This document shows positions 49,712-52,804 of a DNA stretch of 64,000 nucleotides, in pieces. A program made the translations under genes and the position numbers. The stretch spans positions 3,801,501-3,865,500 of the forward strand of contig NC_014623.1 of NCBI RefSeq assembly GCF_000165485.1. Direction: 5' to 3'. Below the pieces are notes generated by a model, which did not search any database, was not told the DNA's origin, and saw only the letters and a program-made list of their open reading frames with translations. Each line of letters opens with the position of its first letter. Position 1 is the stretch's first letter. This stretch comes from Stigmatella aurantiaca DW4/3-1. Lineage in GTDB: Bacteria; Myxococcota; Myxococcia; Myxococcales; Myxococcaceae.

Positions 49712-50424
49712 GACTTGGGCACCTCCAGCTCCTCGCCCACCACCGCCACCTTGCCGGTGAGCGGTGACAGGCTGAGGGTCCAGACGTTGTCCCCCTGGCG
49801 CACGTACACCTGGGCCTTCTCCGTGTAGCCCTGGGGGAAGAAGTAGAGGTAGGCCACGCCCTCGTGCACTGGCTCCTTCTGCTGCCGCGTCCACACCGAG
49901 ATGCTCACGCTGCTGGGCAGCTCCCGCGGCGCCAGCTCTTCATTGGTGTAGCTGGAGAAGCGCGCTGCGTCCTCCACGCGGTTCTCCTCCTGCGCCATCA
50001 GCTCCTGGAGGCTGGGGGCCCCGCCGCTGTTGGAACTGGTGAAGTTGCGCCGATCGTCGCCGAAGCGTGCCTGGTCCTCCCGCGTGCGGTTCTCCTCCTT
50101 GAGCGCATCATCCCGGTTGCGCGCGGTGGTGACGCCGCTCGCGGCGCACTCGGCGTGGTAGCGCGCCGTCCCCTCGCTCTTCGCATCGGGAATCTCGAAG
50201 ACCAGCCGGCACGTCTTCCCCGAGAGCGCGGCGGTGTCGTAGAGCGAGCGGATGATGCCCGCGAGTTCCCCGGCGGCCGCCTTGGCCTTGCTGCCGGTGA
50301 TGGCGCCCACGCCCGTCACCACCGCGGAGAAGAGCACCGCGGCGATGAGCAGGGCGATGGCGATTTCGATGAGCGTCAGGCCCCGCTCGGCGCGCCGGTT
50401 GATCCGCATGGAAGGACTCCTCAT
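49708..50424 (-). CDS. gspH: Type II secretion minor pseudopilin GspH
   Basis: A 238-aa protein. The start at 50424 is chosen because it overlaps the upstream stop as ATGA and has GGAGGAG before it; a second ATG at 50409 also has AGGAG. The prepilin site is G15 followed by LTLIEIAIALLIAAVLFSA, with Glu+5. The globular domain contains a charged stretch rich in Arg, Asp and Glu (around NRDDALKEENRTRED), probably a loop. Then come beta strands typical of GspH (VSISVWTRQQKEPV, then AYLYFFPQGYTEKAQVYV). GspH joins the tip trimer to the GspG filament. Confidence 0.88.
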   Translation of the reverse strand: MRSPSMRINRRAERGLTLIEIAIALLIAAVLFSAVVTGVGAITGSKAKAAAGELAGIIRSLYDTAALSGKTCRLVFEIPDAKSEGTARYHAECAASGVTTARNRDDALKEENRTREDQARFGDDRRNFTSSNSGGAPSLQELMAQEENRVEDAARFSSYTNEELAPRELPSSVSISVWTRQQKEPVHEGVAYLYFFPQGYTEKAQVYVRQGDNVWTLSLSPLTGKVAVVGEELEVPKS

Positions 50425-50855
50425 GGCCGTGTCTCCTCCAGCCCGCCGCTGGTGATGTCCGCGGCGTCTCCCTGGCCTCCTGGGACTCCATCCGAGCCAT
50501 AGGAGACGATGCCGGCGTGCACCCCGTTCATCCGGTACACGTAGGGGTGGCCCCACGGGTCCATGGGCGGGCTGTCCATCACCTTGGCCTGCACGAGCGG
50601 GGTGAAGCCCTCCTGCTCCGTGGGAAAACGCCCCGTGGCGCGGTGGAAAGCCTGGAAGTAGCCCTCCAGGCGGCGGATCTGCGCCCGGGCCCGGCGCTGC
50701 TTCTGGCCCAGGGTGTCATCCTGCGTCAGGTACACCAGCCCGAAGGCCATGGCCGTGGCGAGGGCGAAGACGATGGCCAGCACCCACCGCCCCAGCCGGG
50801 CCGGGTTCGCGGTGCTGCCGGCGTTCTGGAGGGAGAGGTGCTCGGCCATGGCCAT
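50421..50855 (-). CDS. GspG-like membrane-anchored protein without a prepilin site
   Basis: A 144-aa protein between gspG and gspH. GAGGA precedes the ATG at 50855. It has one membrane segment (LGRWVLAIVFALATAMAFGLVYL) but no G/FTLxE cleavage site. The periplasmic part copies the C-terminal domain of the neighbouring GspG: a helix like IRRLEGYFQAFHRATGRFP, then the GF-TPLV turn, then MDPWGHPYVY and the calcium-site segment (SYGSDGVPGGQGDAADI). It cannot be trimmed like a pseudopilin and is probably held in the inner membrane. It is read as a paralogue of gspG, perhaps a platform or chaperone for the filament; function unknown. Confidence 0.75.
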   Translation of the reverse strand: MAMAEHLSLQNAGSTANPARLGRWVLAIVFALATAMAFGLVYLTQDDTLGQKQRRARAQIRRLEGYFQAFHRATGRFPTEQEGFTPLVQAKVMDSPPMDPWGHPYVYRMNGVHAGIVSYGSDGVPGGQGDAADITSGGLEETRP

Positions 50856-50866
50856 GGGGTCCTCGC

Positions 50867-51286
50867 TTACTTGGAACCGGGGTTCGCGTCGCGGGACGAG
50901 ATGTCCGCGTCCTGCCCCTCGCCGCCCGCGGTGCCATCCCCTCCGTAGGAGATGATCACGGGCTTGCCGCCCTCGTTCAGGTACACGTACTCGTTGTTCC
51001 AGGGGTCCCTCGGAATGGACTCCAGGGCCTGCATCTCCACGAGCCCCCGCAGGCCGGTGGCCGTGTCGGGGTAGTTGCCCTTCTTCGTGTAGTAGAGCTT
51101 GAGCGCGTTCTGGATGCTCTTGATGTCCAGCTCGGCGCGGTCCCGGCGGGCCTGGTTGAGCTGGGGGATGACCGCCACGCCCACCGCCGCGGCGATGAGG
51201 CCGAGAATGGTGATGACGACCATGATTTCGATCAGGGTCATGCCGCGGTTGCGGCGGCGGCGCTGCTGCTTCTTCGTCGTGTCCAT
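50867..51286 (-). CDS. gspG: Type II secretion major pseudopilin GspG
   Basis: A 139-aa major pseudopilin. The prepilin site is G15 followed by MTLIEIMVVITILGLIAAA, with Glu+5 (Glu20). The C-terminal domain holds the calcium-binding loop of GspG (DPWNNEYVY, then SYGGDGTAGGEGQDADI). It forms the shaft of the pseudopilus that drives substrates through the secretin, after removal of the leader by a prepilin peptidase not encoded in this window. It lies 63 bases after a small membrane-protein gene. Confidence 0.93.
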   Translation of the reverse strand: MDTTKKQQRRRRNRGMTLIEIMVVITILGLIAAAVGVAVIPQLNQARRDRAELDIKSIQNALKLYYTKKGNYPDTATGLRGLVEMQALESIPRDPWNNEYVYLNEGGKPVIISYGGDGTAGGEGQDADISSRDANPGSK

Positions 51287-51349
51287 CGTGTCCCTCGATT
51301 GACTTTCTGGCAGGCGTTGGGGCCCTGCCCATGCCGTTGTGTCAAAGGC

Positions 51350-51496
51350 TCAAGGCTCGCTTCGGACGGGGGCCGGAGCGCTGGCCTGCGAATCGGAAGC
51401 GTAGAGGACGGCACCCACCCCCATCAGGGCCGCCGCCAGGGCCAACAAGGCCGCCAGGGTGATGCCTTGGACCCATCTGTCGAGCGTGTCATTCAT
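51350..51496 (-). CDS. 48-aa single-pass membrane protein between gspF and gspG
   Basis: A very short gene. GAGG lies 9 bases before the ATG at 51496, and it starts 11 bases after the gspF stop. The peptide has a polar start (MNDTLDRWVQG), one hydrophobic helix (ITLAALLALAAALMGVGAVLY) and a Ser/Ala/Pro tail (ASDSQASAPAPVRSEP) probably facing the periplasm. It is not a prepilin. Its place inside the T2SS operon, with its own RBS, suggests a subunit or regulator of the platform. No known family. Confidence 0.6.
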   Translation of the reverse strand: MNDTLDRWVQGITLAALLALAAALMGVGAVLYASDSQASAPAPVRSEP

Positions 51497-51507
51497 CGCC
51501 GCGCCTC

Positions 51508-52764
51508 TTACCGGATGACCGAGTTCACCTGCAGAATGGGCATCAGGATCGAGAAGGCGACGAATGCAATCACCGCGCCCATTATCACGATGAGGATGGG
51601 CTCGAGCAGCGAGGTGAGGGCGCCGATGCGCACATCCACCTGCGTCTCGTAGCTGTCGGCCACCGAGAACAGCATCTCCTCCAACTGGCCGGAGCGCTCA
51701 CCAATGGCCACCATGTGGTAGACGAGCGGGGGGAACTCCCCGGAGCGCTTGAGCGGGTTGGCGATGCTCTCGCCCTCGCGGATGGCATCCCGCGCTTTCT
51801 CCACCACCTCCGAGAGCACCGAGTTGGTGATGACCGCCTTGACGATGTCCATGGCGGCCAGCAGGGGCACACCGCTCTTGAGCAGGGTGGCCAGCGTGCG
51901 CGCGAAGCGCGAGATGGCCAGGAGCCGCACCAGGCTGCCGAAGACGGGCGCCTTGAGGGCGAAGCGGTCCCAGAGGGGCTTGCCGCGCGGGCTGGCAAAG
52001 AACGTCACCGCCCCGAAGATGGCCAGGCCCAGCACGGGGAAGATGAAGAACCACCAGTTCTGGAGGAAATTGCTCACGCCGATGAGCACCCGCGTGGTGA
52101 AGGGCAGGGTGGCGTTCATCGTCTCGAAGATCTTCGTCACCTTCGGCACGACGACGGTCATCAGCAGCACGAGGATGCCGCCGCCCACCACCAGCATGAT
52201 GGCGGGGTAGAGCATGGTGCCGACGATCTTCTGCCGCAGCTTGGCCTGGCCCTCGGTGAAGTCCGCCAGCCGCTGGAGCACCGTGTCCAGCGCGCCCGAG
52301 GCTTCGCCGGCCCGTACCATGTTGATGTAGAGCGAGCCGAACACCTTCTGGTGCTGCCCCAGCGCGTCCGCGAGCGAGGAGCCCTCGTTCACCCGCTGCT
52401 TGATGTCGGACAGGATGCGCTTGAAGCGCTCCTTCTCCACCTGGTCCACCAGCGCGGTGAGCGACTCCACCAGGGTGACGCCCGCGGCCAGCAGCGTGGC
52501 GAGCTGGCGCGTGGTGATGGCGATGTCCTCGGTGGTGACGCGGCCGCGCGCCATCTTGCGCAGGTCGATGTCGCGCTCGGCGAGCGCCGCCCCGGCCCCC
52601 TTGCGCACCGCCCCCCGGCTGCCTTCGGCCTGGCCGAGCACGTCCGTGAGGAAGATGCCGTCCTTGCGCAGCTGGCTGCGCAGGGTCTTGGGCGAGTCGG
52701 CCTCCAGCAGCCCCTTGATGGTCTTGCCCGCGCTGTTGAGACCTCTGTACTCGAAGACAGGCAT
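51508..52764 (-). CDS. gspF: Type II secretion platform protein GspF
   Basis: A 418-aa inner-membrane protein. The N-terminal cytoplasmic part starts MPVFEYRGLNSAGKTIKG. Two repeated T2SSF domains follow (RQLATLLAAGVTLVESL and SRFARTLATLLKSGVPLLAAM) with three membrane helices, the last near the C-terminus (GAVIAFVAFSILMPI). It is the platform that couples GspE ATP hydrolysis to pseudopilus growth. A strong hairpin lies between gspE and this gene. Confidence 0.94.
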   Translation of the reverse strand: MPVFEYRGLNSAGKTIKGLLEADSPKTLRSQLRKDGIFLTDVLGQAEGSRGAVRKGAGAALAERDIDLRKMARGRVTTEDIAITTRQLATLLAAGVTLVESLTALVDQVEKERFKRILSDIKQRVNEGSSLADALGQHQKVFGSLYINMVRAGEASGALDTVLQRLADFTEGQAKLRQKIVGTMLYPAIMLVVGGGILVLLMTVVVPKVTKIFETMNATLPFTTRVLIGVSNFLQNWWFFIFPVLGLAIFGAVTFFASPRGKPLWDRFALKAPVFGSLVRLLAISRFARTLATLLKSGVPLLAAMDIVKAVITNSVLSEVVEKARDAIREGESIANPLKRSGEFPPLVYHMVAIGERSGQLEEMLFSVADSYETQVDVRIGALTSLLEPILIVIMGAVIAFVAFSILMPILQVNSVIR

Positions 52765-52779
52765 GATGGCTCACCCCGG

Positions 52780-52797
52780 CCCCTCCCGTGGGAGGGG
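52780..52797 (-). other. Strong hairpin between gspE and gspF
   Basis: CCCCTCCC / GGGAGGGG, an almost loopless inverted repeat in the 40-base gap. It may set the ratio of GspE to GspF by pausing, RNA processing or masking the GGAGGGG that could serve as an RBS. There is no U tract, so full termination is unlikely. Confidence 0.5.
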
Positions 52798-52804
52798 TTG
52801 GTGG

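Follow-up and report, generated by a model that had tools for sequence, protein, structure and literature searches.

A conserved 48-residue single-helix membrane protein encoded between gspF and gspG in myxococcal type II secretion operons

In the 64,000-nucleotide stretch of Stigmatella aurantiaca DW4/3-1 DNA analysed here (the window), the type II secretion system (T2SS) operon contains, between gspF and gspG, a 48-codon open reading frame (51350–51496, minus strand) that, judging from its conservation and substitution pattern, is a genuine protein-coding gene of the myxococcal T2SS operon. The product is a predicted single-pass membrane protein that no Pfam or NCBIfam family covers. Our leading reading, to which we give a probability of roughly 0.5, is that it would be an accessory one-helix part of the T2SS inner-membrane platform, with GspF or the pseudopilins as its packing partner.

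In the operon, gspC-D-E-F are followed by the small ORF, then by gspG and a GspG-like gene, and finally by H, I, J, K, L, M and N. Ten of the operon's proteins were queried against Pfam. GspC to GspG, GspK, GspM and the GspG-like protein each hit the expected model; GspL matches PilM_2, with its T2SSL match below the cut-off, and the protein read as GspN has no Pfam match. H, I and J, which lay outside those ten queries, were named from prepilin-like N termini and gene order. The small ORF begins with an ATG at 51494–51496 and ends with a stop at 51350–51352. Because gspF (T2SSF, Pfam PF00482; 51508–52764, minus strand) ends at 51508, the gap between the two genes is the 11 nt at 51497–51507, exactly as the original prediction had placed it. 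Downstream, a spacer (51287–51349, minus strand) that carries a conserved TGCCAGAAAGTCA element (51300–51312), recognized from sequence and alignment, separates the ORF from gspG (50867–51286, minus strand; Pfam PF08334 and PF07963), which encodes the major pseudopilin with its N-methylation motif. The ORF had also been credited with its own ribosome-binding site, and GAGG (51504–51507, minus strand), located 7 nt 5′ of the ATG, is a plausible candidate: by simple pattern match, a Shine–Dalgarno-like pattern precedes the ORF in 64 of 65 core genomes (the core is defined below) and in 10 of 25 non-core genomes of the family, against a baseline of 12% for random 14-nt stretches inside gspF.

An open frame alone proves little here, because another frame is open across the same span in 53 of the 65 core genomes, as would be expected if the ORF had arisen by chance in GC-rich DNA. 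The substitution pattern argues otherwise. The in-frame pN/pS, computed over 59 distinct core sequences, is 0.40; the two alternative forward frames give 1.2 and 2.1, and the reverse frames 1.19, 0.70 and 2.41. Within five genera pN/pS ranges from 0.16 to 0.47 for the helix part and from 0.53 to 0.96 for the tail, and the corresponding values among the four closest genomes are 0.24 and 0.35. This in-frame purifying selection, the conservation between families and the Shine–Dalgarno-like site of the core genomes together make a chance ORF exceedingly improbable, and we reject that reading. The claim that the operon includes a gene for a small membrane protein is thus upheld.

The protein is little more than a helix. 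AlphaFold2, given a 38-row alignment, predicts a single helix at residues 3–38 followed by no structure (mean pLDDT 85.4), and hydropathy reaches a Kyte–Doolittle maximum of 2.42 (17-residue window), in agreement with the one strong helix originally described. The Pro/Ser tail described alongside it is present, as a Pro/Ser/Ala tail, but it is weakly conserved and variable and is absent from several genera, in which the protein ends at LYV. The nearly fixed part is D-R-W-[IV]-Q-R followed by A22, L24, V27, G28, L31 and Y32. Among the 59 distinct core sequences, W8, L14, A22, L24, G28, L31 and Y32 are invariant and N2, D6, R7, Q10, R11, T13, A19 and V27 are nearly so; the conserved residues do not cluster significantly on one side of the helix (P = 0.19, taking 100 degrees). 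Arginines on the N-terminal side suggest a cytoplasmic N terminus and a periplasmic tail, an orientation that is weakly indicated for the window copy, which has one arginine on either side of the helix.

The original prediction had staked itself on conservation of the frame in close relatives, and conservation was found. We sought GspF in 145 genomes of the order and took gspF with about 1.6 kb of downstream sequence from 136 of them, leaving out nine in which the GspF match was absent, distant only or partial; two of the nine (G008 and G015) belong to the window's family, and a profile search there gave only weak matches. A one-helix ORF occupies the gspF–gspG slot in 93 of 94 loci of the window's family (f1), a count that includes one partial locus at a contig end (L111), scored as present from its profile match. 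The same type of ORF is found in all ten loci of four other families (f2, 1/1; f3, 4/4; f6, 2/2; f9, 3/3). In all 31 loci of three further families (1 in f4, 21 in f5 and 9 in f7), fewer than 60 nt separate gspF from gspG, leaving no room for it as a non-overlapping ORF. The remaining f1 locus (L142, from genome G092, whose assembly is 79% complete) is the only one in the family read with both gspF and gspG but without the small ORF; the two genes are 11 nt apart there (around 1239–1250). The sole f8 locus (L196, genome G041) has a hydrophobic 92-residue ORF of a different type in the slot, 7–286 nt after gspF. Outside the order, where 49 genomes were sampled and 40 loci read, one locus (L232, from the same taxonomic class) has a candidate ORF, and in another (L225) gspG was not found. 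Five f13 loci (L220, L222, L224, L228 and L229) have 552–580 nt between gspF and a GspG-like match that is itself weak, an interval that may hold a different gene. One carrier of the myxococcal small gene, contig BNCN01000003.1 (L214), is titled Comamonas sp. KCTC 72670, a title that looks wrong.

Profile comparisons connect the copies in different families. A profile built from 38 members, 37 of them in f1, matched a nine-member profile from f3, f6 and f9 with E = 7 × 10−8 over 35 columns; the controls gave 0.0023 (best of 60 column shuffles), 0.051 (reversed) and 0.012 (best GspF stretch, drawn from genomes like those of the f3/f6/f9 profile). Searched against 146 genomes of the phylum at E ≤ 0.001, the 38-row profile found one match per genome in all 65 f1 genomes sampled, some of which are members of the profile and so match by construction. 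Further matches at this threshold fell in one f2, two f3, one f5 and one f23 genome, those in f5 and f23 being weak (6 × 10−4 and 2 × 10−4) and inside long open frames; none of the f6 or f9 copies was reached. The window's own genome contains one convincing match, the next having E = 0.095. In 15 chosen genomes, 12 of them from families without the ORF, a search for copies outside the slot returned only weak matches, the best (E = 0.0013) in a 723-residue open frame. The small gene is single-copy and located in the gspF–gspG slot.

The window protein has no Pfam family at E ≤ 1, and its only NCBIfam match, to CU044_5270 at E = 0.093, scores 12.5 bits where the cut-off is 100. In a 26-row set of relatives, eight rows touch CU044_5270, the best at E = 0.007 and far below the cut-off, and one row touches the Pfam model GspL_C at E = 0.011. 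A search of PDB sequences gave no convincing relative, only a weak match to a γ-glutamyltranspeptidase chain (E = 0.019). As no Pfam or NCBIfam model matches, we rejected identity with a known T2SS component (GspC–GspN). A pseudopilin (G–K) was rejected as well: none of the 26 rows (one of them a wrong row) has an N_methyl match, and DRWIQR-like residues stand where a prepilin motif would precede the helix.

The ORF had been called overlooked, which is only partly right. In the open-licence literature we found no study of the protein's function, but the gene itself very probably has a locus tag already. In Myxococcus xanthus, MXAN2514 is GspD and MXAN2505 is GspK (PMC3222651), and this numbering, combined with the gene order in the window, would make MXAN_2511 the small ORF and MXAN_2510 gspG. 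A published list gives MXAN2511 as the head of a T2SS unit of ten genes that becomes active 1 hour into development (PMC9765219, 2022), and the ten genes from the small ORF through the last gene of the operon equal the count of that published unit. Its promoter is reported to combine three putative half-sites for Nla28 with a putative σ54 site, GGGCGCG-N4-TTGCA, and the DNA-binding domain of Nla28 shifts the promoter fragment in vitro (PMC9765219). On a contig of M. xanthus strain AM003 (L217), a relative of the small ORF sits after gspF, and 8.1 kb of sequence contain a single occurrence of the published σ54 string and a single one of the complete half-site string, both just upstream of this relative. 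The small ORF is thus very probably the ortholog of MXAN_2511 of M. xanthus DK1622, which, going by numbering and promoter strings, likewise lies between gspF and gspG. In a search of the open-licence literature for tags MXAN_2511 to MXAN_2516, MXAN_2511 was named only in PMC9765219, which gives the tag in Table 1 and a figure legend, both concerned with the promoter rather than the protein. The suggestion that the ORF is too short for most gene callers meets one counter-case in this ortholog, if the tag is correctly assigned. Insertion in MXAN2510 is reported to delay aggregation, to reduce viable spores to <0.1% of wild type and to cut soft-agar swarming to 48% (PMC9765219), a phenotype that speaks for the importance of the operon and not for that of the small gene.

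The published σ54 string also occurs in the window, within the 3′ end of gspF (51565–51580, minus strand). We examined its conservation in the family core, 66 genomes (loci L061–L126) that head the ranking by GspF similarity, with GspF identity of 76% or more. The TTGCA of the element is spelled by the rare gspF codons ATT GCA, and these are fixed in 66/66 core genomes, a count that is true partly by definition because the core was named after the genera carrying ATT GCA had been seen. The −24/−12 pattern GG-N10-GC is likewise present in 66/66, as ATG GGC and ATT GCA TTC at fixed spacing. Among 188 invariant, degenerate GspF columns in these genomes, the ATT GCA pair is the only place where rare codons are fixed (a codon found in >90% of genomes at the column and used in <25% of cases); their usage is 0.099 and 0.034, the site itself included. 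In the family outside the core, ATC GCC or GCG is usual and ATT GCA occurs in 2 of 28 loci. Taken with the literature, these data show that in the family core no other gene intervenes between the conserved σ54-like element within gspF and the start of the small gene. Since the element lies in the M. xanthus promoter fragment bound by Nla28, the small gene and gspG–gspN may be made independently of gspC–gspF. Such a promoter within a gene, with its fixed rare codons, would account for the driving of one operon as two units, and would tie the small gene to starvation-induced development.

What the protein does can be approached from its position, single copy, retention across families and strictly conserved helix residues, which together suggest a helix packed in the T2SS inner-membrane platform. 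The conserved residues would pack against an inner-membrane component, most likely GspF or the adjacent pseudopilins, and the protein would thereby stabilize or tune assembly of the endopilus. PulF, the Klebsiella GspF, is reported to be trimeric and to work with the PulE ATPase (PMC10790770), which would make GspF, or the incoming pseudopilins, natural partners. The single-pass platform proteins GspC, GspL and GspM share with the small protein an inner-membrane location, one helix and the same operon; they differ in having large extramembrane domains, and each has its own gene here. GspG and the other pseudopilins are also small proteins with one hydrophobic helix encoded in the same operon, but the small protein has neither their prepilin motif nor their globular domain. 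Whatever the role, it would be accessory, as whole families have a T2SS without the protein in the gspF–gspG slot; its absence from the 31 f4, f5 and f7 loci and from G092 indicates that T2SSs in general do not need it. A regulatory function and an accessory structural role fit equally well.

Other explanations were weighed against a platform subunit. The protein might handle pseudopilins rather than partner GspF, acting as a membrane chaperone that escorts GspG before incorporation. Its gene immediately precedes gspG, and in the core it belongs with the pseudopilin genes, the internal promoter making it separable from gspF, but the sequence favours GspG no more than GspF and is not homologous to the membrane helix of the GspG-like protein encoded beyond gspG (50421–50855); we regard an escort as possible although unlikely. 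In a profile comparison, homology to that helix scored E = 0.0047; the reversed control scored the same and the best shuffles reached 0.0014, and the homology was rejected.

More doubtful is a leader or coupling ORF, whose translation would set expression of gspG while the peptide itself mattered little. Consistent with it, the published transcription unit begins with the small ORF, the distance from its stop to the alignment-placed gspG start is −1 to 28 nt in 24 of 25 non-core family loci (168 nt in the other, L127), and the core spacer contains a conserved element. Against it, the amino acids are conserved and not the frame alone, with seven residues invariant among 59 sequences and a residue pattern that persists across families; the core spacer measures 26–81 nt, so tight coupling is not general; and 17 spacers gave no covarying RNA structure. 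Least credible of these is an unrelated small membrane protein that merely hitchhikes in the operon: that three families and G092 lack it in the slot would be expected of a hitchhiker, but no convincing copy occurs elsewhere in the window's genome or in the 15 genomes searched, and we think this very unlikely.

Should the protein prove to belong to the platform, T2SS motor models based on enteric bacteria would lack a component retained by many myxobacteria, and a helix of 48 residues beside GspF would give access to the tuning of the platform. The ORF also represents a protein family without a model in Pfam or NCBIfam. More tentatively, and with the odds against it, many Myxococcales T2SSs may have an undescribed helix-only subunit of the GspF platform that, in core Myxococcaceae, is switched on separately with the endopilus genes by the intragenic σ54 promoter during starvation, so that the machine could be retuned for development through a changed ratio of this subunit and the pseudopilins to GspE and GspF.

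Some further features were seen around gspG. An element like TGCC(R)GAAAGTCA lies 5′ of gspG in most of 27 chosen, aligned core loci (51300–51312 in the window, minus strand), and in many core loci TGAC stands about 38 nt upstream of it, near the stop of the small ORF. Folding of the 17 spacers gave four pairs, no covariation and −0.39 kcal/mol, and we claim no structure; a search of Rfam over 50800–52800 returned one sub-threshold match only. The GspG-like protein (minus strand) has a T2SSG domain (E = 1.1 × 10−16), no N_methyl match and an ordinary N-terminal membrane helix. By tblastn, its gene follows gspG in 66 of the 136 loci, namely L147 and 65 of the 66 core loci, the exception being L111, which is cut by its contig end.
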